12,728 nucleotides of DNA from Chloroflexota bacterium. Its GTDB lineage: Bacteria; Chloroflexota; Anaerolineae; Anaerolineales; Villigracilaceae. Shown piece after piece: positions 1 to 12,728 of the stretch. Each line of letters begins with the position of its first letter. Within the stretch, counting starts at the first letter, position 1. The notes beneath the pieces are model-generated. The model worked only from the letters and a program-made list of their open reading frames with translations, made no database searches and had not been told where the DNA came from. Location: the NCBI GenBank assembly GCA_021796155.1, contig JAJYOO010000034.1, forward strand, positions 1 through 12,728. The letters run 5' to 3'. A program made the translations under genes and the position numbers.

Positions 1-1778
1 CGAACCACCATAAAACCGCCCACTCAGCGTCGGACGATTTCCTCCAGCCACTTAACACTGGCAAAGCCTATTACAGCCTTGCCGCGGGCAATACCACCAC
101 AGAAGAACCATATCTCATCATTGCCGTGCCGCTGTTTGCGCCTGGCAGCGAAAACACAACGCAATTAAATAACATATTGATTGGCAAGATCAGACTCTCT
201 CAGATAGCGGCTCTGCTGACTCAGATACGACCAGTCGCAGGTGAAACGCTATACGTAACCGATGCGTCTGGAAAAGTGATTGCCCACCAGAATCCTTCAT
301 TCGATTTTAAAAATAAAAGCATCGTTGTGCCGACCGTTGCCGATATCCAGCCCGGTTTGACCAGCACAAGTGCAGTCGTCGCAGTCAACAAGATTCAGCT
401 TGGCAATCAAACATTCAATGTCGTAGCAGAGCAGCCTGCTGATATCGCCTTGGAATTAATGAGCAACATCGTCAGGACGTTGGTCATCGCGATATTGATC
501 GCATTGTTCGTTTCCATCGTGGTCGGTTTTATGGTGGTTCGCTCCATCGTTCTGCCAGTCGAAAAGCTGGCAGTGACAGCCCGGCAGGTTGCCGCAGGCG
601 ACCTCTCCCAGACCACATCCATCCGAAGCGACGATGAAATTGGGACACTGGCAAATACTTTCAACAACATGACTTCGCAGTTGCGTGGTCTGGTGGGATC
701 ATTGGAAAAACGCGTGGCCGAACGTACGGAGGAATTGGAACGCCAGGCATTGCGTATGCGCGCCTCCGCCGAAGTTGCACGCGACGCCGCGTCCGCGCCG
801 GACCTGGACGAACTGTTGGATCGTTCAAGCCGCCTCATCCGTGATCGTTTCAACCTTTATCACACCGGCATCTTCCTTTTGGACGATAAAAAAGAATACG
901 CGATCCTGCGCGCATCGCCTACCGAAGCAGGCGCGCAGATGCTGGAAAGCGGCCATCGCTTGCGCGCGGGAGAACAAGGCATCGTTGGACAAGTAGCTGC
1001 AACAGGCGAACCTCGCATCGCTCTGGACGTTGGAGCGGATGCCGTTTACTTTAGCAATCCCCTGCTCCCGAACACTCACTCCGAAATGGCGCTGCCGCTC
1101 AAAACTGCTGAGGGCATCATCGGCATCTTGGACATTCAAAGCGATCAACCTTCGGCATTCCGTCAGGACGATATCACGATCATGCAAGTGATGGCCGACC
1201 AGCTCGCCACAGCCATCGAGAGAATCCGCCTGTTGCAACAAGTGCAGGCGCAATTACGAGAAATCGAAGGGGCATACGGACGCTTTACACAGGAATCATG
1301 GAAAGGATTGTCGCGGAGCGGGAACCGGGTCAGCGGCTACAAATTCGACAGCGTTCGCTTGCAGCCGGTTATTGATCCGTCAGCAAACGATGGAGTGTCA
1401 GCGGTCATTCCGATCCGCTTGCGCGGGCAAACCATCGGCGCAATCAACGTCCGCTTCCAACATGGACAGCCGCAGGAGAAAACCATCGCGTTGATCGAGC
1501 AAATATCCGACCGTCTTGCTACCGCACTTGAGAATGCCCGCCTGCTCGAGGAAACTCGTCAGCGTGCCGAGCGCGACGCGCTCATCAGCGAAATGACCGG
1601 ACGCTTCCGCTCGACGCTCGACCTTGAATCAGTATTGCGAACCGCGGCTCAAGAACTACAACGTGCCTTCCAATTGCAGGAAGCAGAAGTCCGGCTTAAT
1701 TTACCTGCAACAAAACAGCCGGAACCGGAAAAAGTAATGCAGGAAAAAACTCGTAAGAATGGCAAGCGACGCGAGTGA
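1..1778 (+). CDS. Cache-HAMP-GAF membrane receptor, 5' partial, no output domain
   Basis: The frame is open from base 3 at the left edge to TGA at 1776-1778 (591 visible residues), so the true start lies upstream. A GTG at 126 could serve as a start but would cut the sensor domain. Visible order (numbered from base 3): the distal part of an extracytoplasmic Cache-like sensor (about 1-150, with the typical strand turn 'VTDASGKVIAH'); a membrane helix (about 155-180); HAMP (about 181-235, 'DDEIGTLANTFNNMT'); a coiled coil with 'RVAERTEELE'; a GAF domain (about 263-420) with 'YHTGIFLLD' and 'NPLLPNTHSEM'; a degenerate second GAF-like module (about 425-520, 'IPIRLRGQTIGAI'); and a tail resembling the first helices of another GAF (about 523-560). 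No kinase, MCP, GGDEF/EAL or DNA-binding domain follows. Family knowledge supports membrane sensing; the ligand is unknown. It is the first visible gene of the operon and a paralogue of the next two. Confidence 0.9.
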   Translation, partial: NHHKTAHSASDDFLQPLNTGKAYYSLAAGNTTTEEPYLIIAVPLFAPGSENTTQLNNILIGKIRLSQIAALLTQIRPVAGETLYVTDASGKVIAHQNPSFDFKNKSIVVPTVADIQPGLTSTSAVVAVNKIQLGNQTFNVVAEQPADIALELMSNIVRTLVIAILIALFVSIVVGFMVVRSIVLPVEKLAVTARQVAAGDLSQTTSIRSDDEIGTLANTFNNMTSQLRGLVGSLEKRVAERTEELERQALRMRASAEVARDAASAPDLDELLDRSSRLIRDRFNLYHTGIFLLDDKKEYAILRASPTEAGAQMLESGHRLRAGEQGIVGQVAATGEPRIALDVGADAVYFSNPLLPNTHSEMALPLKTAEGIIGILDIQSDQPSAFRQDDITIMQVMADQLATAIERIRLLQQVQAQLREIEGAYGRFTQESWKGLSRSGNRVSGYKFDSVRLQPVIDPSANDGVSAVIPIRLRGQTIGAINVRFQHGQPQEKTIALIEQISDRLATALENARLLEETRQRAERDALISEMTGRFRSTLDLESVLRTAAQELQRAFQLQEAEVRLNLPATKQPEPEKVMQEKTRKNGKRRE

Positions 1779-1780
1779 GG
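1777..1780 (+). promoter_or_regulatory. Ribosome binding site GAGG deciding the start of the second receptor
   Basis: GAGG overlaps the stop codon of the preceding gene and sits 8 bases before ATG 1789. An in-frame ATG at 1759 lies inside the preceding gene and has no comparable purine run at normal spacing, so 1789 is preferred. Termination on the upstream gene would place ribosomes directly at this site. Confidence 0.55.
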
Positions 1781-1788
1781 TCCCAAAA

Positions 1789-3471
1789 ATGTCTGAGGTA
1801 ACTTTTAGTCAAGCCAGCATGAACCCACGCGAAAGACTCGCAACCACGCGAATGATTCGCTCAATTCTTATCCTGGAAATCATTGGTGTTGCGGGACTGG
1901 CAATATCAGATGAACTCACCTACCATATTTTACGAACAGCATATGCAGCGGCGCCACTGGTCGTTATCTTATTAGTATGTTTATTGCTTATTCAGCGGGG
2001 AATATTATTGCCCGCTCAAATTCTGGTTCCAGTTGGCCCTCTGCTGGTTAGAGACTATCTGGCGTTTGAAGGCGTTGGCATCCACGATGTTTCTCTGATC
2101 GTATTCCCCATTGTCATCGTATTGGCATTTCTGACCCTTGATAGAATCAGCGCGCTTGTAGTCAGTGGTTTGGTCATTCTTTCGACAAGCATTATTACGA
2201 TCATGGGGGGAGCTACACCAACCGCAAATCTTGATGATGCCGTTACCATAGCAATTCTTCTGGCGGCCACTGTGATAATCATCTACATCATTGTGGGCCG
2301 GCTGAATGAGAATATCCAACGCGCATACCTTAACGAGCAGGCACAGATCAAAACCAACATAGCGCTGGAGGAAGAACGCGCAAATCTTGAAACCAGAGTT
2401 AAGGAGCGAACTCAAGCTCTGGAACACCGCGCTGTTCAACTGCGAACCGCTGCCGAGGTTGGAAACGTTGCGGCGTCCATCCGCGATCTGGATTCGCTGC
2501 TCCATCAGACGGTTCGCTTGTTGAGCAATCGTTTTGGTTTTTATCACGCAGGAATTTTCTTATTGGATGAGACTGAAGAATTTGCCGTTCTACGCGCTGC
2601 CAATAGTGAAGGCGGACAGCGAATGCTGCACCGTAACCATAAACTGGAAGTTGGCCGCGTTGGCATCGTCGGTTATGTGGCAAAGACCAGTGAAGCACGC
2701 ATCGCCCTGGACGTTGGGCAGGACGCGGTTTTCTTCAACAATCCTGATTTGCCCGATACGCGCTCCGAAATGTCGCTTCCATTGAATGTGGCTGGCCGCG
2801 TGCTCGGCGTGTTGGACATTCAATCCACACAGTCGCAGGCGTTCACCAAAGAAGATATTGAAATTATGCGAGTGGTGGCTGATCAACTGGCGATTGCAAT
2901 TGAAAACTCGCGCTTGCTCGCTGAAAGTCAGGCTGCCATCGAAGCCACGCGGCGTGCGTATGGCGAGATCGCTGTCGAGGCATGGAAACAGCTTCTTGAA
3001 ACGGAACCCAATCTCGGCTTCGTAAGTACCGGACGCGAGACTCGTCCGCTTGTGCTGGCGAGGGATGACGTAAGTCCCGAAGCATCAGAAGCAGTCTTTC
3101 AGAGTCATCCCGTGACAAGCGCGGACCAGGTCAAATTATTCGCGCCGATTTCCGTCCGCGGGCAATCCATCGGCACATTGCGGCTGGTCAAACCAAATCA
3201 AGAACGCTGGACCGAGAACGAAATCCAAATCGTTCAATCGCTTTCGGATCAATTGAGTGGCGCACTGGAAGGCGCGCGGCTTTTCGATGAAGCACAGCGC
3301 CAGGCAGCTAAAGAACAGATCATCGGCGAGATTACATCCAAGATCAGCGCGTCCATCAACATGCGTAACGTGCTACGGACTGCGGCAGAAGAACTGGGCC
3401 GCGCAATTCCCGGCTCGGAAGTCGTTATTCAATTCCAAAGCGGCAATGAAATCGAGAAACAAGAAAAGTAA
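1789..3471 (+). CDS. Polytopic membrane GAF receptor (about six TM helices), no output domain
   Basis: 560 residues from ATG 1789, chosen for the GAGG at 1777-1780; ATG 1759 would add 10 residues and overlap the upstream gene by 20 bases. Residues about 23-174 form roughly six hydrophobic segments with very short loops (for example 'PLVVILLVCLLLIQ' and 'VTIAILLAATVIIIYIIV'), so sensing probably occurs within the membrane or from short loops. A coiled coil with 'RVKERTQALE' (about 195-214) leads into a GAF domain (about 218-379; 'YHAGIFLLDE', 'FFNNPDLPDTRSEM'). A degenerate GAF-like module follows (about 383-500; 'APISVRGQSIGTL'), then a half-GAF tail ('EITSKISASINMRNVL'). The soluble part is clearly paralogous to both flanking receptors, but the Cache/HAMP front is replaced. 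No catalytic or DNA-binding output is visible. Similar multi-TM fronts occur on histidine kinases of Chloroflexota (recollection, not searched). The ligand cannot be predicted. Confidence 0.88.
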   Translation: MSEVTFSQASMNPRERLATTRMIRSILILEIIGVAGLAISDELTYHILRTAYAAAPLVVILLVCLLLIQRGILLPAQILVPVGPLLVRDYLAFEGVGIHDVSLIVFPIVIVLAFLTLDRISALVVSGLVILSTSIITIMGGATPTANLDDAVTIAILLAATVIIIYIIVGRLNENIQRAYLNEQAQIKTNIALEEERANLETRVKERTQALEHRAVQLRTAAEVGNVAASIRDLDSLLHQTVRLLSNRFGFYHAGIFLLDETEEFAVLRAANSEGGQRMLHRNHKLEVGRVGIVGYVAKTSEARIALDVGQDAVFFNNPDLPDTRSEMSLPLNVAGRVLGVLDIQSTQSQAFTKEDIEIMRVVADQLAIAIENSRLLAESQAAIEATRRAYGEIAVEAWKQLLETEPNLGFVSTGRETRPLVLARDDVSPEASEAVFQSHPVTSADQVKLFAPISVRGQSIGTLRLVKPNQERWTENEIQIVQSLSDQLSGALEGARLFDEAQRQAAKEQIIGEITSKISASINMRNVLRTAAEELGRAIPGSEVVIQFQSGNEIEKQEK

Positions 3472-3476
3472 TCCTT

Positions 3477-5996
3477 ATGAAAAACTTTTCGTCAAAGACT
3501 CCTCCTGCGAAAAATCCGCTCAGTCTCCGTACCCGGTTGATACTTGGCAATGTGATCATCACGTTCCTGGCAGTCACAGGCTTGGGATATTACGTTTACT
3601 ATCGCGCACAGGAGGCAAACACATATCTGGCAACGCAGTTGGCGGCCAGCGTCCGCCAACAAGCTGAGACCCAAATGAACGCAATCAGCACGGAACAAGC
3701 TGCGGCTCTCGACAACTTCTTTGCAACAGCGGCTATGAACATTACCATGATTGGCACAACAACGGGCAATTTGGTCTCACAAGAGTCCAGCCTGAACAAT
3801 GGAGCCTATTGGGATGCAACTAATTCCCTGTATCGTCTATCAAACGGCAGTTGGGATAATTCAAAAACTGATACAGCCTCGGTCTTCATCCCTGCAAAAA
3901 ATGACCTTACGCCTGACCTGATATCCGAGTTGAATACTGTCAGGCAGTTGGATTTTACTGTTCCGACGGTTCTTAAGTCTAACCCAGATGTGGTTGCCGT
4001 CTACTTCGGAGGCATAAACGGGGAGACCATCTACTACCCTAACATTGACCTAGCGTCTGTTGTGCCGCCGGATTTCGATGTGACCCAAAGACCATGGTTC
4101 GTGAACGCGTCACCGTCCCAAGACCCATCTCATCAGGCCGTGTGGTCTGCCCCATATCTGGACGCCGCCAGCCACGGATTGATCGTGACAAGCAGCGCGC
4201 CTGTTTACGATTCGAGCGGGACGTTTCGCGGCGTGGTCGCAATGGACTTCCAACTTAATAAAATTACCGACCTAGTCTCAAGCATCCATGTTGGAACCAC
4301 CGGTTACTCTTTCATGATTGACAAGAATCAAAGATTAATCGCCTTGCCTGAGAGTGGGTACAAAGAATTTGGAATATCCGCCAGCGCGGTTCCTTTAGGA
4401 CAATTGTTGGATCCAACCAAGGTCATAGCGCCCCTGCCCCCTGAATTTTGGCAAATCCTGGGCAAAATGGGGTCAGGACAAAGCGGCTTTGAAACGATCC
4501 AGTTGAATGGCACAGAACATTTCGTTGCGTATCGCGCCGTGCCCAGCATTGGGTACAGTCTTGCGGTCATTGTTCCATCTCAAGAGCTGCTCGCTGGAGC
4601 CGCGGCCGCGCAGGCGCAAATTGCCGAGTCCGCGAGAAATACCATCATCGTGAGCCTGTTCATTGTGATCGCAATCCTGGTCGTCTCTTTGTTGGCTGCG
4701 GTTGGAATCAGCACCCGCCTGATGCAACCATTAAGAATCCTAACGCAAACTGCCGAGGAGATCACAGCCGGCAATCTCGAAGCAACAGCAAAAGTAAATT
4801 CGCGGGATGAAATCGGAACGCTTGCAACAACCTTGAACGCGATGACAACAGGTCTGAAAGAATCGATCCAGTCCCTTGAACAGCGGGTCAAGGAGAGAAC
4901 CGCCGCGCTCGAGGATGCCTCCCAGAATGCGGATCGGCGCGCCCGGCAATTCGAAGCGGTGTCCCAGGCGACGCGCGCAATAAGTTCGATTCGTAATGTC
5001 AACGAGCTATTACCGCTGGTGGCATCGGTGATCAGCGAATATTTCGGCTATTATCACGTCGGCATCTTTCTCAACGATGAGAACAACGAATTTACATATC
5101 TCACAGCAGCCAACAGTGAAGGCGGCAAGCGGATGCTGGAACGCAATCACAACCTGAAGATCGGCTCGCAAGGCATCGTTGGCTATGTTGCCGCGACCAA
5201 TGAAGTCCGCATCGCGCATAAGGTGGGACAAGACGATGTGTTCTTCAATAATCCCGATCTGCCCGAAACAAAATCCGAAGCAGCACTTCCCCTCCGCAGG
5301 GGCAATCAAGTTGTCGGCGTTCTGGATTTGCAAAGCAAAAAAGAATACGCGTTCTCACAGGAAGATATCGAAGTCCTTGCGATTCTGGCCGACCAGGTCA
5401 GTCTCGCCATTGAGAACGTCCGCTCATTTGAGACAACCCAACGTGCTCTCACCGAGGCAGAAGCGCTTTATCGTCAATATCTGCGCCAAGCCTGGAGCCG
5501 ACTACCGCGCGAGCAGCAACTCGCCGGCTTCAAACACACTCCGCGCGGGGCCATGCCATTGGAAAAGCCGCTTGAACTTAATGCGAATGGCGACAATATC
5601 ATCGTTCCAATCAAACTGCGCGGCGAGACGATTGGCGATCTTAGTATTCAAGTTCCACACGGCGCGATGCTGAGTCACGACCAAATGGATTTGATCGAAG
5701 CGGTGGCTGAACGCCTCGCTCTTTCAGCAGAAAACGCCCGATTGTTCGATGAGACCAGCCGACGCGCGGAACGCGAGCGCATGGTGACCGAGATCACGTC
5801 AAAGATTCGGAGCACGAACGATCCCGAAGCAATGATCAAAATCGCGCTAAACGAATTACGCACTGCACTTGGTGCAACACAAGTTCAATTGATCCCGCAG
5901 GCCATCAGCGTTTCGCAAGACCCGGAAAGAAAAATTTTCTCGTCCACGCCAGAGGAGCCGACGGAAAAACTGCGCGGAAATGGAGCGAATAAATGA
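3477..5996 (+). CDS. dCACHE-HAMP-GAF membrane receptor, no output domain
   Basis: 839 residues, complete. ATG 3477 lies 5 bases after the previous stop with only a weak purine run, suggesting translational coupling. Order: TM1 (about 21-41); a large extracytoplasmic double Cache domain (about 42-386); TM2 (about 388-412); HAMP (about 413-470, 'DEIGTLATTLNAMT'); coiled coil 'RVKERTAALE'; GAF (about 515-660; 'YYHVGIFLNDE', 'FFNNPDLPETKSE'); degenerate GAF-like module (about 665-765; 'VPIKLRGETIGDL'); and a half-GAF tail (about 765-806). In the distal Cache pocket, F200, R205, W207, F208, Y227 and D257 fall at spacings close to the amino-acid-binding motif of dCACHE_1 receptors, with two Tyr-to-Phe changes and about four extra residues. 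This makes an amino acid or related small ligand plausible but unproven. No MCP, kinase or cyclase domain follows, so it must act through a partner, plausibly the hybrid kinase at 6747. It overlaps the ParA-like gene by four bases. Confidence 0.93.
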   Translation: MKNFSSKTPPAKNPLSLRTRLILGNVIITFLAVTGLGYYVYYRAQEANTYLATQLAASVRQQAETQMNAISTEQAAALDNFFATAAMNITMIGTTTGNLVSQESSLNNGAYWDATNSLYRLSNGSWDNSKTDTASVFIPAKNDLTPDLISELNTVRQLDFTVPTVLKSNPDVVAVYFGGINGETIYYPNIDLASVVPPDFDVTQRPWFVNASPSQDPSHQAVWSAPYLDAASHGLIVTSSAPVYDSSGTFRGVVAMDFQLNKITDLVSSIHVGTTGYSFMIDKNQRLIALPESGYKEFGISASAVPLGQLLDPTKVIAPLPPEFWQILGKMGSGQSGFETIQLNGTEHFVAYRAVPSIGYSLAVIVPSQELLAGAAAAQAQIAESARNTIIVSLFIVIAILVVSLLAAVGISTRLMQPLRILTQTAEEITAGNLEATAKVNSRDEIGTLATTLNAMTTGLKESIQSLEQRVKERTAALEDASQNADRRARQFEAVSQATRAISSIRNVNELLPLVASVISEYFGYYHVGIFLNDENNEFTYLTAANSEGGKRMLERNHNLKIGSQGIVGYVAATNEVRIAHKVGQDDVFFNNPDLPETKSEAALPLRRGNQVVGVLDLQSKKEYAFSQEDIEVLAILADQVSLAIENVRSFETTQRALTEAEALYRQYLRQAWSRLPREQQLAGFKHTPRGAMPLEKPLELNANGDNIIVPIKLRGETIGDLSIQVPHGAMLSHDQMDLIEAVAERLALSAENARLFDETSRRAERERMVTEITSKIRSTNDPEAMIKIALNELRTALGATQVQLIPQAISVSQDPERKIFSSTPEEPTEKLRGNGANK
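5982..5985 (+). promoter_or_regulatory. Ribosome binding site GGAG for the ParA-like gene
   Basis: GGAG lies 7 bases before ATG 5993, inside the last codons of the upstream receptor. Together with the ATGA stop/start overlap it supports this start and coupled translation of receptor and ATPase. Confidence 0.65.
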
Positions 5997-6778
5997 GCTA
6001 CGTTGTCGCGATCTCAAATGAAAAAGGCGGCGTTGCCAAAACCACGACCACACTTTCATTGGGCGCCGCATTGACCGAGGCCGGGCAAAGAGTCCTGGTT
6101 GTGGATTTGGACCCACAGGCAAATTTGACTCTCGCGCTCGGCATCGAACCCGGCTCCGCGGCTGTGACTTCAAGTCACATCTTGATCGAATCCGCTCCGC
6201 TGATGAGTGCGCGGCTTTCCACTGAGATCGAGCATCTTGACCTCATCCCATCGCACTCGAGCATCGAAAGCGCGGAACAATTCCTTCCGGTGCGAACCCA
6301 TTACACATCCGGATTGAAGCGGGCGATTGACAACGCCTCGCCGCTGCCGTACGACTACATCGTGCTCGACTGCCCGCCATTCCTGGGTGCGATCACAACC
6401 AACGCGCTGAGCGCGGCAGATTTGTTGATCATTCCGACACAGGCAGAATATTTTTCCGCGTACGCGTTACGCAACATGATGGGCGTGATCCGGCGCGTAC
6501 GGCAGGAAAGCAACCCGAATCTTGGTTATCGCATTTTGATCACGCTGCTCGACAAGCGCAACCGCACGCATCGCAACATTCAGGAACAACTTCAAAACAC
6601 ATTCGGCGAAGGACTTTTCAAAACGGTGATCGAAGTAGACACGAAACTTCGCGAGAGTCCGATTGCGGGACTGCCCATTACACGTTACAAACCCGGCGCC
6701 CGTGGTTCCGTCCAATATCGCGAGTTGGCGCAGGAGCTTATGGAATATGTCAAAGAAAAAGACCAACAAACGGCTTGA
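5993..6778 (+). CDS. ParA/Soj-family deviant-Walker ATPase
   Basis: 261 residues, about the length of chromosomal Soj-type proteins without an N-terminal HTH. The deviant Walker A motif 'KGGVAKTTT' gives the signature lysine K11 and P-loop lysine K16. The switch I region is 'VVDLDPQANLT' (D38, D40) and Walker B is 'YIVLDCPP' with D126. The C-terminal part keeps the family pattern 'RESPIAGLPITRYKPGARGS'. Family knowledge: such ATPases dimerise on ATP, usually bind nucleoid DNA nonspecifically, and position plasmids, chromosomes, carboxysomes or receptor clusters with a partner that stimulates hydrolysis. No ParB-like gene or recognisable parS site is in the window. The gene overlaps the receptor upstream by 4 bases (ATGA) and the giant kinase downstream by 32, so all three are probably co-translated. 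The inferred role is spatial organisation of the sensory complex. A housekeeping or plasmid partition role cannot be excluded but fits the setting poorly. Confidence 0.93.
   Translation: MSYVVAISNEKGGVAKTTTTLSLGAALTEAGQRVLVVDLDPQANLTLALGIEPGSAAVTSSHILIESAPLMSARLSTEIEHLDLIPSHSSIESAEQFLPVRTHYTSGLKRAIDNASPLPYDYIVLDCPPFLGAITTNALSAADLLIIPTQAEYFSAYALRNMMGVIRRVRQESNPNLGYRILITLLDKRNRTHRNIQEQLQNTFGEGLFKTVIEVDTKLRESPIAGLPITRYKPGARGSVQYRELAQELMEYVKEKDQQTA
6732..6736 (+). promoter_or_regulatory. Ribosome binding site AGGAG for the giant kinase
   Basis: AGGAG lies 10 bases before ATG 6747, inside the ParA-like coding region. It supports 6747 over the in-frame GTG at 6702 and TTG at 6663 as start, and implies coupling with the ATPase gene. 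Confidence 0.55.
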
Positions 6779-9700
6779 ACAGCTCTTCGATAATGTAGAC
6801 AAGGAAGCTGTCAAACCGTCCAAGCGCGTTGGCAAGACAACTGAGACTGCCAAAGCAGCAATCCTTCCGCCTCCCGCCCGGACCAAAGCCGGTCAGGCCA
6901 AACCGGTGTCTCAAACGCTGGAAGAGACTCCCGTTATCACGTCTGCCATCTCGAACACTTCCGGCGCGATGTCGCTCGCATTCCGGCAGGACGAAAAGAG
7001 CTGGGCAACGTTGCGCGTCGTGGACGAGGAAGCTCCGCGCAGTTGGGCGATGGAAGAACAAATGCTGGTCAAGCAAGTTGCCGACCAGTTATCACTTGCA
7101 TTGGAAAACGCGCGGCTCTTTCAGGAAACACAAAAAGCCCTTTCAGACACAGAATCACTTTATCGAGCCAGCGCCGAGCTTAACGCCGCGCAAAACTTCG
7201 ACGACATATTCAGCATCCTCCGCAAATACACCGTCTTGGATCGTGCCGCGCTTGGCCGCGTGATGCAATTCGACCGCGCCTGGAACGATAAACAAATACC
7301 GGAAATGATGCACCTTATCGCAGATTGGCCGATGGATGCGTCCAATCCGAGTCATCGAGCCGCGCATTTATCGGTGAAAGAATATCCGGCTGTCAAATTT
7401 CTCAGCCCAAATGAACCCACTGTTGTGGAAAACACGGCCACAGACGAGCGGCTGGATAAAAACACGCGCGACCTCCTAGCTGTCCAGTTTGGGGCCAAGA
7501 GCGCGCTGTTTGCCCCGCTGACAGTCAGCAAGGATTGGATCGGTTATCTTGTCGCCTATTACACCGAAGCGACAACATTTACCAAGGACGAGATTCAACA
7601 CCTGATGGCTTTGATCGGACAAGCCTCCATCGCAATCGAAAAGAACCGCTTGTTCGAGGAAGAGCAGAAACGTTCAGCAGAACTTCAGGCTGTTTCCGAA
7701 ATCGCGGCCAGAGTCTCAACGATTCTGGATTTCGACAAACTGCTGGAAGAATTCGTCCACCAAACCCGCAAACGCCTGAATCTTTATCACGCACACATTT
7801 TCATGCTGGATGAAGGCGCGAACACGCTGTCAGTCAGAGCTTGCGGTTGGAAGGAAGAAGGCCGGCGCGGAACTCACGGCGAGCGCACCATCGCGATGGA
7901 TCAACCAGTTTCGCTGGTCGCCGAGGCCGCGCGGACTCTGAAGCCAGTGATCGCCAATAACGTTCGAAGCGATCCGCAGTGGCTTGCCAATCCATTTCTG
8001 CCGGACGTCCAGTCAGAAATGGCGGTGCCCGTTGTTTCAAAGGACAAGCTGCTGGGCGTTTTGAATGTCCATGCGGACCGCATCAACGCATTTAGCGAAG
8101 TAGACGCGGCTATCATCACCACACTTGCCTCGCAGATCGGCACCATTATGGAAAATGCGCGGCTGTTCCAGGAGACCCGGCTTCGCGAGCAGGAAGCGCT
8201 CCTTATGAATCGCATCGTGACGGCTGCTTCCCGATCTCTGGACATTAGGGAGAGTCTGCAATTCGTTGCGAATGAAATTGCCAATCTTGTATCTGCGCTC
8301 CACGTAGGCATTGCACTGGTAAACGAGGCAAAAACCGCGCTTGTCCTGCAAGCCGATGCGCCGTTAAGCCCGGATGGTAAAAGCGATATCGGCGTGGTGA
8401 TCCCCATCGAAGGCAATCCGACCGCCGAGCCGATCATCAAAAGCGGAAAACCTTTATTCATCAGCGACACACTGAATAATCCGCTTACCGCTGCCATCCG
8501 TGACGTGATGAAATTACGCGGAACCCAAAGTCTGTTCATCTGGCCCATCTTCGCCGGAAAAGAGGCAATCGGTTCTTTGGGAATTGATTTTACCCAGCCG
8601 GACCGCAAACTCTCCGAGCATGAAGAGAATCTGGTCGCTACCATTCTGCTGCAGATCAATACATTCCTGCAAAACTCGCGGCTCTTCGAGGAAACACAAC
8701 GCAACGCTCGTCAAATGTCGGTGCTTGCGGAAGTGGGCCAGGACATTTCGGCTTCACTTGATCTTCAAATTGTGCTGGAAAAAATCGCCCAGCATGCAAA
8801 AGAATCTTTGAATGCGTTTAGCAGCGCCGTTTATATCCCGGATGCAAGCGGACAAGTCCTCCATGCTTTTGTGGCACTTGGCGATGAAGCGGAAGAGATC
8901 AGGAATGATTCGATCAAGTTCGGCGAGGGGGTTCTGGGTTCGATTGCTGTAACCAAAACTGGCGAGATCGTAAACGACGCCATGAATGATCCACGCGCTC
9001 TCGTTATCGCGGGTACGCCTCAATTAACAAATGAACATTTGATGGCCGCACCATTGTTATCGGGCGATACATTGACAGGCATCATGGCCGTCTGGCGGAC
9101 GGGTGCCGGGCTTGATTTCCAACCATCAGAATTTGGATTCCTGATTGGTCTCGCTCGTGAAGCAGCCATCGCAACAGAGAATGCCCGTCTGTTCGAGCGG
9201 GAACAGTATCGCCGCCGAATTGCAAACACACTGACAGAGATGGCGCGCATCGCCAGCTCGTCATTGAATCTGAGCGAAGTGGTGCATCAACTGCTCGAAC
9301 AGTTGCCGCGCCTCGTTCCGTTCCGCACCGCATCCATCCAACTCATCGAGCCAGATGGACACCGGCAACAAGTTGGGGGCGTCAGCAGGGATCAAGACCG
9401 CTTGACCGCGCTCGAAAGCCCGCCAAGTTACTTCCTGCGGCCGGTGGAGGAAGATAAATTGATCCTGAAGGTTGTAAAGGATCGGGAAGTTATCATTCTG
9501 AATGACGCCCTCGAAGATCCGCGCTGGGAAATTCGTCCCGAAACCGCAACTGTCCGCTCCTGGCTGGGCGCTCCCCTCCTCGTCGGCCCAGATGTGATCG
9601 GTATCCTGATGCTGGACGAGAACACTCCCAACGCCTACACTCAGGAAAGCGCCGAATTGGTGCGAGCCTTCACACCGCAGGCAGCCATCGCGATTCAGAA

Positions 9701-12700
9701 CGCCCGCCTGTTTGAAGAGACACGTCAAAGCCAGCAAGCCGTTGAACGATCCGAACATGAACTGCGCGCGCTATTTGCGTCAATGAACGACGTCATTATC
9801 GTTCTGGGCAAAGACGGACGCTACCTTCGCATCGCGCCGACAAATCCGTCGCGCCTTTATCGTCCTCCGGACGACATGCTTGGCAAGACCACAAAAGAAG
9901 TCCTGCCGCCAGAGTCAGCCGAACCGATTATGGCAGCGATTGACCGCGCATTGAAAACCAATGAACAGGTCAAACTGGAATACGCCCTCAACATTAATCA
10001 CAAGGATTACTGGTTTGACGCTACGATATCCAAGTTGACCGAGGAACAAGTCTTCCTCGTTGCACGCGATATTACTGACCGCAAACACAATGAATTAGTC
10101 CAGACCTCCATCACACAGATATCCGAAGCGGCGCTGACAGCGCCAGATATGTCGAGCCTGCTCAAAGTCATACACGAGAGCATTGCGAGTCTGATGTATG
10201 CCCGCAATTTCTATGTCTGCCTTTACGATGAACATACAGACATGATGACGTTCCCCTATTATGCCGATGAACATGACTCAGCATGGCCGTCTCAAAAGCC
10301 CGGAAGCGGATTGACGAGTTATATTTTGCGAACCGGCAAGCCATTGTTGGTCACGCCAGAATTGCTGGATGAATTGGAACGCACTGGAGAGATCAAAGCA
10401 GGCGGAACGCGCGGGACGGATTGGATGGGCGCGCCATTAAGAAGCGGTGCCCAACGCATGGGCGTAATCGCCGTTCAATCCTACGATCCGGAAATCCGTT
10501 TTACCGAAGGAGAGCTTGAGACACTCACCCTGATCGCAAATCAGGCATCGGTCGCAATCGAGCGCAAACGGTCGCAGGAAGAACTGGCAAAGTTCAAGCT
10601 TGGCATTGACAATTCCGACGACGCGATCTTTATCACCGACCCGGATGGAACAATCATCTATGTAAATCCTGGGTTTGAAAAAATCTATGGCTTTCAACAG
10701 CAGGAAGTCATCGGAAAGAATCCACGCATCATACAATCGGGACTGCTCACCAAGGAAGATTACAAACTCTTCTGGGAAACATTACTCTCAAAGAACACAG
10801 CCAGCGGCGAAGTGATGAACAAGCGAAAGGATGGACAGCTCATTCCAATTGCAGGTGTGAACAGTCCAATCCTTGATGAGAGCAATAACATCATCGGCTT
10901 CCTGGCCGTCCATCACGATATGACCGAGACCAAGCACGCGGAAGAAACACTTAAACGCCGGAATGAATATCTCTCCGCTGCCGCCGAAATCGGAAGGCTT
11001 GTTACATCAACACTTGATCTCAACACCATCTTTGTTCGGACAGTCAATCTGGTCAGCGAACGGTTTGGCTATTACCACGCGGCGATCTTCGTTGTGGAAG
11101 AAACGGGATTCAATGCGGTCCTGCGCGAGGCAACTGGTGTGGCCGGCACGGAGATGAAACGCAAAGGCCACAGCCTGCCCATCAACGAGCATTCCATCGT
11201 CGGCAAAGTGACATATACAGGCGAGCCGGTTATCGTCAACAACACGGCCCTCGACGCGACACACAAGCCGAATCCTTTGCTGCCCGAAACGCGGGCGGAA
11301 GCTGCCATCCCGCTTCGAGTTGGCAGCCGCATCATTGGCGCGTTGGACATCCAGTCCACGAACGTTGGCGCGTTTACGACAGATGATTTGGCCGTGCTGC
11401 AAATTCTGGCAGACCAGGTCGCCATCGCAATTGACAATGCCCGTTCGTATGAACTATCGCAGCAAGCAGTGATGGAAATGCGCGAAGTGGATCGGCTCAA
11501 GAGTCAATTCCTCGCCAACATGAGCCATGAATTACGCACACCGCTCAACTCGATCATCGGCTTCTCGCGCGTCATTCTAAAAGGAATTGACGGCCCGATC
11601 TCTGACTTGCAGCAACAGGACTTGTCCGCGATTTATAACTCCGGCCAACATCTGCTTGGATTGATCAACGATGTGCTTGATCTCGCCAAGATCGAAGCCG
11701 GGAAAATGGAACTGGCCTTCGACCAGGTCAATCTGCCCGATTTGATTACCAGCGTCATGTCCACTGCCAGCGGCCTGGTGAAAGACAAAAACGTCAAGCT
11801 GGTAAAGAATATTCATGGCGAATTGCCCCCCGTCCGCGCTGATGCGATCCGCATCCGTCAGGTTCTGCTTAATCTGATGTCGAACGCCGCCAAATTTACC
11901 GATGATGGCACGATTACCGTTGACGCGTCCGTTGAAAATGGCACATCTGGCCGTCCTGAAATCCTTGTTAGCGTTACAGATACCGGCCCCGGCATCGCGC
12001 AGGAAGACCAAGCCAAACTCTTCCAGCCGTTCTCGCAAGTGGATGATTCACCGACGCGCAAGACCGGCGGTACAGGCCTAGGACTTTCCATCAGCCACCA
12101 ATTGATCCAGATGCACGGCGGGCGCATTGGCGTCCACAGCACCATCGGCAAAGGCAGCACGTTCTATTTCACGCTGCCTGTTTATCGCGGCAAGGAAGAG
12201 ATAACAGAACCAACAGATAAAAAGATCGTGCTGGCAATTGACGACGATCCGCAAGTCATCTCGCTTTACGAACGCTATCTCCAGCCGCAGGGTTATCAAG
12301 TTGTTGCGCTCACCGATCCGACGCGAGCCAAAGAGCGGGCGCGCCAACTCAAACCGTTTGCGATCACCCTCGATATTATGATGCCCGGCTATGATGGTTG
12401 GTCTGTGTTAGCCGATCTCAAATCCAACAGCGAGACGCGCGACATCCCTGTCGTGATCTGTTCCATTATCGAAGAACAGGAACGCGGCTTCAGCCTTGGC
12501 GCAGCCGATTATCTGCTCAAGCCGATCCTCGAAGAAGATTTGCTCGGCGCATTGGATCGTCTGAATGCCGATGGCAGCATCAGCGAAGTTTTAGTCATTG
12601 ATGATGATCAAAATTCCCTGCGCTTGATCGGCAAGATTTTTGAAAGTCATCAACGCTATAAGCTGACCATGTGTGATGGCGGTCCACAAGGCTGGGAGGC

Positions 12701-12728
12701 TTTGTGCAATCATCCGCCACAGGCTGTG
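6747..12728 (+). CDS. Giant soluble multi-GAF/PAS hybrid histidine kinase, 3' partial
   Basis: I translated the frame from ATG 6747 to the right edge and found no stop (1994 codons); the 3' end lies outside. Approximate order: a Lys/Thr/Pro-rich leader 1-74; a C-terminal half-GAF 75-128; GAFs at 135-305, 306-475, 480-648, 650-817 and 820-990; PAS 1004-1115; GAF 1117-1278; PAS 1281-1400; GAF 1406-1572 ('YYHAAIFVVEE'). HisKA (1580-1660) has 'SHELRTPLN' with phospho-acceptor H1594. HATPase_c (1685-1815) has N box 'NLMSNAAKFT' (N1713), G1 'DTGPGI' (D1745) and 'GGTGLGLSI'. The first receiver (1826-1940) has D1832/D1833, phospho-acceptor D1876 in 'LDIMMPGYDG', S1906 and K1925, so it looks active. 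A second receiver begins at about 1945 ('LVIDDDQNS'). No membrane segment is visible, so it is probably cytosolic and takes signals from soluble ligands or from the three upstream receptors. All catalytic motifs look intact. The downstream phosphotransfer target is not in the window. Confidence 0.95.
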   Translation, partial: MSKKKTNKRLEQLFDNVDKEAVKPSKRVGKTTETAKAAILPPPARTKAGQAKPVSQTLEETPVITSAISNTSGAMSLAFRQDEKSWATLRVVDEEAPRSWAMEEQMLVKQVADQLSLALENARLFQETQKALSDTESLYRASAELNAAQNFDDIFSILRKYTVLDRAALGRVMQFDRAWNDKQIPEMMHLIADWPMDASNPSHRAAHLSVKEYPAVKFLSPNEPTVVENTATDERLDKNTRDLLAVQFGAKSALFAPLTVSKDWIGYLVAYYTEATTFTKDEIQHLMALIGQASIAIEKNRLFEEEQKRSAELQAVSEIAARVSTILDFDKLLEEFVHQTRKRLNLYHAHIFMLDEGANTLSVRACGWKEEGRRGTHGERTIAMDQPVSLVAEAARTLKPVIANNVRSDPQWLANPFLPDVQSEMAVPVVSKDKLLGVLNVHADRINAFSEVDAAIITTLASQIGTIMENARLFQETRLREQEALLMNRIVTAASRSLDIRESLQFVANEIANLVSALHVGIALVNEAKTALVLQADAPLSPDGKSDIGVVIPIEGNPTAEPIIKSGKPLFISDTLNNPLTAAIRDVMKLRGTQSLFIWPIFAGKEAIGSLGIDFTQPDRKLSEHEENLVATILLQINTFLQNSRLFEETQRNARQMSVLAEVGQDISASLDLQIVLEKIAQHAKESLNAFSSAVYIPDASGQVLHAFVALGDEAEEIRNDSIKFGEGVLGSIAVTKTGEIVNDAMNDPRALVIAGTPQLTNEHLMAAPLLSGDTLTGIMAVWRTGAGLDFQPSEFGFLIGLAREAAIATENARLFEREQYRRRIANTLTEMARIASSSLNLSEVVHQLLEQLPRLVPFRTASIQLIEPDGHRQQVGGVSRDQDRLTALESPPSYFLRPVEEDKLILKVVKDREVIILNDALEDPRWEIRPETATVRSWLGAPLLVGPDVIGILMLDENTPNAYTQESAELVRAFTPQAAIAIQNARLFEETRQSQQAVERSEHELRALFASMNDVIIVLGKDGRYLRIAPTNPSRLYRPPDDMLGKTTKEVLPPESAEPIMAAIDRALKTNEQVKLEYALNINHKDYWFDATISKLTEEQVFLVARDITDRKHNELVQTSITQISEAALTAPDMSSLLKVIHESIASLMYARNFYVCLYDEHTDMMTFPYYADEHDSAWPSQKPGSGLTSYILRTGKPLLVTPELLDELERTGEIKAGGTRGTDWMGAPLRSGAQRMGVIAVQSYDPEIRFTEGELETLTLIANQASVAIERKRSQEELAKFKLGIDNSDDAIFITDPDGTIIYVNPGFEKIYGFQQQEVIGKNPRIIQSGLLTKEDYKLFWETLLSKNTASGEVMNKRKDGQLIPIAGVNSPILDESNNIIGFLAVHHDMTETKHAEETLKRRNEYLSAAAEIGRLVTSTLDLNTIFVRTVNLVSERFGYYHAAIFVVEETGFNAVLREATGVAGTEMKRKGHSLPINEHSIVGKVTYTGEPVIVNNTALDATHKPNPLLPETRAEAAIPLRVGSRIIGALDIQSTNVGAFTTDDLAVLQILADQVAIAIDNARSYELSQQAVMEMREVDRLKSQFLANMSHELRTPLNSIIGFSRVILKGIDGPISDLQQQDLSAIYNSGQHLLGLINDVLDLAKIEAGKMELAFDQVNLPDLITSVMSTASGLVKDKNVKLVKNIHGELPPVRADAIRIRQVLLNLMSNAAKFTDDGTITVDASVENGTSGRPEILVSVTDTGPGIAQEDQAKLFQPFSQVDDSPTRKTGGTGLGLSISHQLIQMHGGRIGVHSTIGKGSTFYFTLPVYRGKEEITEPTDKKIVLAIDDDPQVISLYERYLQPQGYQVVALTDPTRAKERARQLKPFAITLDIMMPGYDGWSVLADLKSNSETRDIPVVICSIIEEQERGFSLGAADYLLKPILEEDLLGALDRLNADGSISEVLVIDDDQNSLRLIGKIFESHQRYKLTMCDGGPQGWEALCNHPPQAV
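7150..9725 (+). repeat. Five tandem GAF modules within the hybrid kinase
   Basis: Protein-level repeat, not a DNA repeat. Each module ends in a helix of the type 'ENARLFEET'. The aligned helix positions are residues 122, 300, 471, 644, 813 and 986 of the kinase, giving spacings of 178, 171, 173, 169 and 173. The modules have diverged strongly in sequence, so this is old duplication or domain accretion rather than recent expansion. The last GAF before the kinase core ends in a variant helix ('DNARSYELS') at about residue 1565. Confidence 0.85.

Follow-up and report, generated by a model that had tools for sequence, protein, structure and literature searches.

A ParA-family ATPase gene lies in a conserved Chloroflexota operon for membrane receptors, a giant hybrid kinase and a receiver-fused PLP enzyme

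A 12,728-nucleotide (nt) stretch of DNA from a Chloroflexota bacterium (the window: contig JAJYOO010000034.1 of assembly GCA_021796155.1, whole length) holds most of a conserved Chloroflexota operon, in which genes for membrane receptors, a ParA/MinD-family ATPase (ParA), a giant hybrid histidine kinase, a threonine-synthase-like pyridoxal 5′-phosphate (PLP) enzyme with a fused receiver (PALP-REC) and an EamA-type transporter follow one another. The gene order, the domains, the intact catalytic and acceptor residues, and an N-terminal tag on the kinase that tracks ParA were observed directly. On this basis we think it fairly likely that the operon encodes a non-chemotaxis two-component pathway positioned by ParA and acting on a metabolic enzyme, for which we infer the localization, the docking, the phosphotransfer and the substrate. 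The parts are ordinary, while their assembly is unusual and well conserved; a ParA with a tagged partner is known, and what is new is the cargo and the metabolic output.

The window contains five open reading frames (ORFs), all on the + strand, whose features are as follows (TM, transmembrane segment; RC, conserved C-terminal receptor segment; KN, segment at the kinase head).

3 to 1778, +, receptor 1 (R1), 5′ end cut by the window: partial dCache, TM, HAMP, GAF, degenerate second GAF, RC; no output domain
1563 to 1700, +, RC of R1: first part of a GAF domain, helix-helix-strand
1759 to 3471, +, receptor 2 (R2): multi-TM N-terminus, GAF, degenerate second GAF, RC tail; no output domain
3298 to 3438, +, RC of R2, from the RC family alignment
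3477 to 5996, +, receptor 3 (R3): dCache_1, TM, HAMP, GAF, degenerate second GAF, RC tail; no output domain
5760 to 5891, +, RC of R3, same family
5993 to 6778, +, ParA/MinD-family ATPase, 261 residues, Walker A KGGVAKTT; no ParB beside the gene within the window
6747 to 6778, +, 32-nt overlap of the parA 3′ end and the kinase start
6747 to 12728, +, giant hybrid histidine kinase, start ATG at 6747, no N-terminal membrane segment, at least 1994 residues, 3′ end beyond the window
6768 to 6788, +, core of the N-terminal tag, K-R-L-E-Q-L-F (kinase residues 8-14)
6813 to 6962, +, variable Pro/Ala-rich linker behind the tag
6963 to 7130, +, KN: last part of a GAF domain (hairpin and helix)
11499 to 11702, +, HisKA, H-box MSHELRTP
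11841 to 12182, +, HATPase_c
12228 to 12554, +, receiver 1, acceptor Asp in TLDIMMP
12588 to 12728, +, start of receiver 2, cut by the window end and complete in a close relative (L001)

The tight one-strand arrangement described in the original prediction was borne out: R1 and R2 overlap by 20 nt, R2 and R3 are 5 nt apart, and R3 overlaps parA by 4 nt, as parA does the kinase gene by 32 nt. A Pfam scan found no kinase or other output domain in R1, R2 or R3, in agreement with the earlier description of receptors without output, but these proteins do not stop after their GAF modules as had been stated, since each ends in a conserved segment resembling the first part of a GAF domain. HAMP is present in two of the three; the dCache match of R1 is partial and under the Pfam cut-off, and R2 shows two GAF stretches behind its multi-TM N-terminus. 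The kinase combines seven stretches of GAF with PAS domains, HisKA and HATPase_c; it has one complete receiver, and of another the first 47 residues lie within the window. A soluble hybrid kinase with H-box and receiver had thus been recognized correctly, except that the gene is incomplete in the window and a second receiver has begun there. As also reported previously, the window has no gene for CheA, CheW or a methyl-accepting chemotaxis protein (MCP) by Pfam scan.

Scanning the window ParA against genome contigs gave 272 relatives, and the best 80 loci (numbered with the prefix L; 64-96% identity in the best segment) were kept, all titled as Chloroflexota or as groups assigned to that phylum. 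ORFs were called greedily as the longest ORF, a procedure prone to misplaced starts and lost genes (e.g. the enzyme in L149). In 77/80 loci, parA shares 32-44 nt with the ORF that follows it, and this ORF starts like the window kinase; some of these ORFs are cut or broken. The contig ends at this point in L016, and L073 and L080 lack an ORF of this kind. Adjacency in this genome alone had been named as grounds for discarding the association, and the neighbourhood check found the opposite. Upstream of ParA, one to eight co-directional genes lie within the fetched flank in 74/78 cases (window included). None of the 326 upstream genes encodes a kinase core (E 1e-10), and 278/324 upstream proteins end in an RC segment. 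Among the 46 others, 25 are 300-349 residues long, and two of this size class are NMT1-type binding proteins; these NMT1/THI5-like periplasmic proteins are encoded amid receptor genes (L010:1697-2665 and L055:5741-6712). The operon order is kept even at 55-56% ParA identity (L118, L133, L135).

The window ParA, a Soj-like ATPase as originally predicted, matches AAA_31 (1.5e-47) and has the deviant Walker A motif KGGVAKTT. K11 and K16, which include the signature lysine of the ParA/MinD family, are invariant in 79/79 operon ParAs, and R170, R180, R189, R194, K218, R220 and R237, conserved in 77-79 of the 79, are candidate DNA-binding residues as judged from sequence. In a phylogenetic tree the operon ParAs form their own group (support 96/95), separate from that of 20 chromosomal ParAs in the genomes concerned (100/100). 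ParB was encoded at a separate locus in all 21 genomes tested (a subset of those behind the 80 loci), with a different ParA beside it in 20/21, and it does not accompany the operon ParA; the pairing of homologous loci with ParB that would have spoken against the original prediction was therefore absent. CheW, the only one of the three chemotaxis proteins searched for genome-wide, was found in 2/21 genomes. ParB elsewhere, the separate ParA group and the scarcity of CheW together indicate that the operon ParA is neither a chromosome partition partner nor a chemotaxis ParA; housekeeping ParABS and chemotaxis-type positioning were both rejected on these grounds. One chromosomal ParA, in L087, also reads KGGVAKTT, so the Walker A alanine variant is no safe marker of the operon type.

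At the start of all 78 kinases (77 loci and the window) stands a peptide that is rich in lysine and centred on K-R-L-D-x-L-F; the Pro/Ala-rich linker behind it changes fast. Lys and Arg make up 29% of their first 22 residues. Among 77 aligned kinases the motif F is kept in 77, R in 74 and the first L in 75, and the linker varies; the tag of L043 reads NRLDRLF. A simple tag motif, composed after the tags had been seen, fits 68/78 kinases (the other ten deviate by one or two letters) and 6/889 other N-termini, among them that of the tagged L134 receptor described below. Activating partners of ParA/MinD ATPases carry a short positively charged N-terminus, according to the parts of the literature consulted, where PomX residues 1-22 are the demonstrated case and TlpT and McdB are mentioned as others (PMC7993993, PMC10241942); the N-terminal domain of PomX is described there as Ala/Pro-rich (PMC7993993). 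A positively charged N-terminus as defined in the consulted part of PMC7993993 is present on the kinases, going by their sequence. The kinase tag thus appears to resemble the docking tags of ParA/MinD partners, a likeness of working and not of descent. This peptide gives concrete form to the earlier idea that ParA organizes the location or assembly of the kinase, the positioning itself being conjectural.

Natural rearrangements link the tag to ParA. The L134 kinase is untagged and has a predicted N-terminal membrane part, and the ORF overlapping the parA end is instead a MASE11-GAF receptor that starts MSNNDNSYQKRLESLF and continues with a Pro-rich stretch. L119 (ParA 46% identical) has the order kinase with hydrophobic N-terminus and no tag, ParA, tagged receptor; this receptor, a membrane protein of 762 residues with GAF, a Pro-rich stretch and no kinase core, shares 14 nt with the parA end and starts MSKDDLKRSLEELFSDFKPPSPEGKPEPPPPPP, and PALP-REC is on a separate contig. 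In both loci the tag is on the receptor right after ParA, and it thus follows ParA and not the kinase. In PALP-REC operons without their own ParA, the tag motif occurs in 7/10 kinases if the genome has an operon-type ParA elsewhere and in 0/10 if it has none (Fisher p 0.003, with kinship ignored; six of the ten negatives, L151 and L153-L157, are close relatives). The three untagged kinases of the first set are those of L132 (degenerate DKINNIF), L140 and L149. This comparison covered 20 kinases. Excluded from it were L131, whose ORFs for kinase and enzyme are broken, L137 and L138, which have no kinase next to PALP-REC, L130, where the contig does not reach the start of the kinase, and the loci with a ParA of their own (L133, L134, L135, L144 and L158-L160). 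Operon-type ParA was defined as at least 43% identity, weaker matches (36-41%) being counted as chromosomal; the start in L152 is uncertain. We assume that the kinases of ParA-less operons use ParA in trans, and one ParA may serve both kinases where a genome has two such pathways.

The original prediction missed the output genes, for the operon extends past the window in relatives. Downstream (3′) of their kinase gene lies one for PALP-REC, a threonine-synthase-like PLP domain with a C-terminal receiver (about 555 residues), and then one for an EamA-type transporter. Where the kinase ORF is closed and 600 nt or more follow it, PALP-REC was found behind the kinase in 70/70 loci: directly next in 66, in L028, L031 and L077 behind the remaining part of a kinase ORF that is broken or masked, and by six-frame reading in L046 (the enzyme ORF is also broken in L028). 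EamA is directly next in 62/65 and behind PALP-REC in the remaining three. L001, with a ParA 95-96% identical to that of the window, has the same operon order, so PALP-REC and EamA very likely follow beyond the window end as well.

Aligned copies of PALP-REC (49/49) retain four N-terminal cysteines, the PLP lysine K109, the acceptor Asp 487, Thr/Ser 517 and Lys 539; Lys109, Asp487 and Lys539 are invariant also in a second alignment of 35 rows. Its receiver has the residues of a response regulator, namely acceptor Asp, acidic pair, Thr/Ser and Lys (49/49). The closest PDB entries to the PALP part are threonine synthases (2zsj, E 8.7e-42). An AlphaFold2 model of the whole protein was only fair (mean predicted local distance difference test score (pLDDT) 64). 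Aligned with other receivers, that of PALP-REC scored on average 192 with the last receiver of the kinase, 127 with the first and 115 with neighbouring OmpR-type regulators (62, 62 and 42 pairs; mean identities were similar, 33-34%). PALP-REC was matched in 37/350 sampled Chloroflexota genomes (E 1e-90), with or without ParA.

Second PALP-REC operons occur in L132, L140-L145 and L147-L150, with an enzyme about 49-52% identical to that of L001; an own ParA was seen among them only in L144. In most, a small receiver protein is encoded next, and L141, L142 and L149 also have a PALP-like ORF of about 400 residues nearby. Just past EamA, an OmpR-type regulator lies on the opposite strand (L010:16932-19372, with a histidine kinase behind it in L010) and in the same place in many loci; the gene after EamA is on the - strand in 38/46 scored loci.

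The kinase has the residues that mark a hybrid histidine kinase, the window copy and its relatives having the H-box His, HATPase and receiver Asp. The H-box pattern is present in 73/78 kinase ORFs, some of which are cut by the contig or broken, and the closed kinases examined have the receiver Asp motif in 65/65 (receiver 1) and 62/65 (receiver 2). No HPt domain was found in the kinase copies scanned. The kinase ORF is split in two in L028 and L031, which assembly error or decay may explain. L151 and L153-L157, without operon-type ParA, have a kinase of 1877 residues with seven N-terminal hydrophobic segments and PALP-REC directly next.

In the pathway that we propose, several membrane receptors (dCache, MASE11 or other multi-TM types, sometimes with an NMT1-type binding protein beside them) would sense signals and, lacking an output domain, end in a GAF fragment. 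The anchorless kinase would gather their signals through its many GAF and PAS domains, perhaps by joining the GAF fragment at its head to the receptor tails. Its first ~22 residues (the basic peptide with K-R-L-D-x-L-F, leading into the Pro-rich linker) would be a docking and ATPase-activating peptide for the ParA of the preceding gene, which, probably nucleoid-bound, would space, spread, cluster or release kinase complexes. The kinase His would pass phosphate to the PALP-REC receiver and so switch the threonine-synthase-like enzyme, the two receivers of the kinase itself would serve as sinks or gates, and EamA might move a related small molecule. Parts of this had been proposed before. That receptors feed one kinase is suggested by gene order, by the upstream genes without a kinase core and by complementary GAF fragments, and a non-chemotaxis sensory complex is consistent with the lack of Che genes in the window and with the CheW count, its assembly into a complex being presumptive.

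How receptors might switch the kinase is addressed by a possible addition to this pathway, not a replacement for it, namely that RC tails and the KN head complete one GAF-like domain in trans. KN aligns strongly to GAF columns 110-171 (hhalign probability 97.8) and RC to columns 5-48, the middle of the domain being absent from both, and most upstream proteins carry RC at their end. L053 and L055 have natural one-chain fusions of RC, linker and hairpin-helix, as does L027, where RC scores weakly. The AlphaFold2 model of the L055 part gave helix-helix-strand, a disordered linker and strand-strand-helix, and Foldseek matched it to tandem GAF structures. However, the RC alignment is weak (probability 8), the model has a mean pLDDT of 69 and a predicted template modelling score of 0.39, the TM-scores over the query were just 0.22-0.39 among the matches listed, and GAF fragments bordering domains may be plain coiled-coil linkers. 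Contact through RC and KN is suggestive only, and we hold a split GAF switch to be doubtful, if conceivable.

The faint RC alignment is one of several points that weigh against the proposed pathway. The 80 loci come from related metagenome-assembled genomes, some near-identical (L039, L040, L047), and the downstream genes of the window itself lie outside the sequence seen. L073 and L080 keep an operon-group ParA with no kinase beside it, and PALP-REC was not found in these possibly incomplete genomes, so that ParA may have a different function or be no more than a relic; its neighbours there are presumably a prenyltransferase-like gene unrelated to the system and a TrmFO-like gene, and the kinase system was apparently lost secondarily. 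In L144, a ParA 44% identical to that of the window precedes a kinase that starts MSQPNRKYKSLEALL and bears only the loose tag KYKSLEALL. Second PALP-REC operons are often without their own ParA, and their kinases are still tag-like at the start; receptors or PALP-REC, in place of ParA, could be what the tag binds. PALP-REC occurs without an adjacent kinase in L137 and L138. Finally, the ParB start GLGKGLDALI of the same genomes aligns in register with the tag, but this similarity is not significant: with a trained position-specific scoring matrix, 20/21 ParBs were equalled by at least 100/670 background N-termini (the best by 13), and with BLOSUM each ParB was equalled by 12-263/670. Derivation of the tag from the ParB N-terminus was rejected on both scores, against the 670 background N-termini and shuffles, and the failed statistics are why a likeness of working, not descent, is claimed.

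Some of these points would be accounted for if ParA were a mere translationally coupled neighbour acting elsewhere and the kinase tag served receptors or PALP-REC, as ParA kept without the system (L073, L080) and tag-like kinases in second operons lacking ParA suggest. Such an arrangement fits poorly with ParA standing beside the system in nearly all of the 80 loci, with a tag that in L134 and L119 is on the receptor right after ParA and absent from the kinase, and with the lack of the motif in all ten kinases of genomes without operon-type ParA. We therefore judge it improbable. Slightly less probable still is an ordinary hybrid kinase operon in which PALP-REC works constitutively as a metabolic enzyme and its receiver is a relic. 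Other PALP matches (31-37% identity) in all 8 genomes searched, the name threonine synthase given at source to some PALP-REC proteins, and the kinase-less copies of L137 and L138 agree with it, but the receiver residues are kept in every aligned copy, PALP-REC stands behind the kinase even in operons without ParA, and both scanned copies fall under the NCBIfam threonine synthase cut-offs (L001: TIGR00260 154.7 vs 167.1 bits, NF006050 256.4 vs 303 bits; L072 likewise). With those scores and the other PALP matches, PALP-REC as the housekeeping threonine synthase was not supported.

A ParA-positioned two-component pathway, if correct, would extend ParA positioning to ordinary metabolic signalling, with a non-chemotaxis kinase as cargo and with partner tags that are portable. 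A membrane signal would reach a metabolic enzyme directly, by an unusual route, through the receiver fused to this amino-acid-type PLP enzyme. By a slight balance only, we favour the wider view that the whole receptor and cytosolic kinase pathway is a new class of ParA cargo, with a portable N-terminal tag that has moved between kinase and receptor and with a PLP-dependent metabolic enzyme as output in place of a transcription factor or motor. Recurrence across many Anaerolineae genomes and the exact residues to mutate make the question directly testable.

ParA-type systems are known to position DNA, carboxysomes, division complexes, flagella and chemotaxis arrays. No described system of the present composition was known to the original prediction, and literature searches, whose coverage excluded most subscription journals, likewise recognized no published description of this gene set. 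In the portions consulted of work on PpfA/TlpT of Rhodobacter sphaeroides, the gene for an orphan ParA neighbours that of a signalling protein, which contacts this ParA with its N-terminus, and ParB-like ATPase activation is proposed (PMC3964821, PMC9178275). The present operon likewise has a non-ParB ParA beside a signalling-protein gene, with N-terminal contact probable by analogy; unlike PpfA/TlpT, a hybrid kinase replaces MCP, CheA and CheW (CheW was not found in 19/21 genomes), the receptors are membrane proteins and the output is a metabolic enzyme. Partners of ParC in Vibrio and Halothiobacillus chemotaxis operons dock by a charged N-terminal peptide, as far as the consulted text describes (PMC10241942); both are ParA/MinD ATPases within sensory operons, but ParC serves chemotaxis arrays. 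PomX/PomZ of Myxococcus and McdB/McdA of carboxysomes share a short basic N-terminal peptide and a non-DNA cargo, to go by the part of the source consulted (PMC7993993), whereas the cargo here would be a two-component kinase, and the partners are likened by N-terminal features and not by sequence relation. Soj/ParA entries (8ray, 1wcv, 6iub) are among the closest solved structures of the operon ParA, which differs from Soj/ParA-Spo0J/ParB in grouping apart from the chromosomal ParA of the same genomes and in having no ParB beside its gene. PALP-REC resembles threonine synthase, a fold-type II PLP enzyme, in its match to 2zsj and its PLP lysine, and departs from it in the fused receiver, the N-terminal Cys4 motif, SGGMGP in place of the GNAGN loop of 2zsj, and scores below the family cut-offs.

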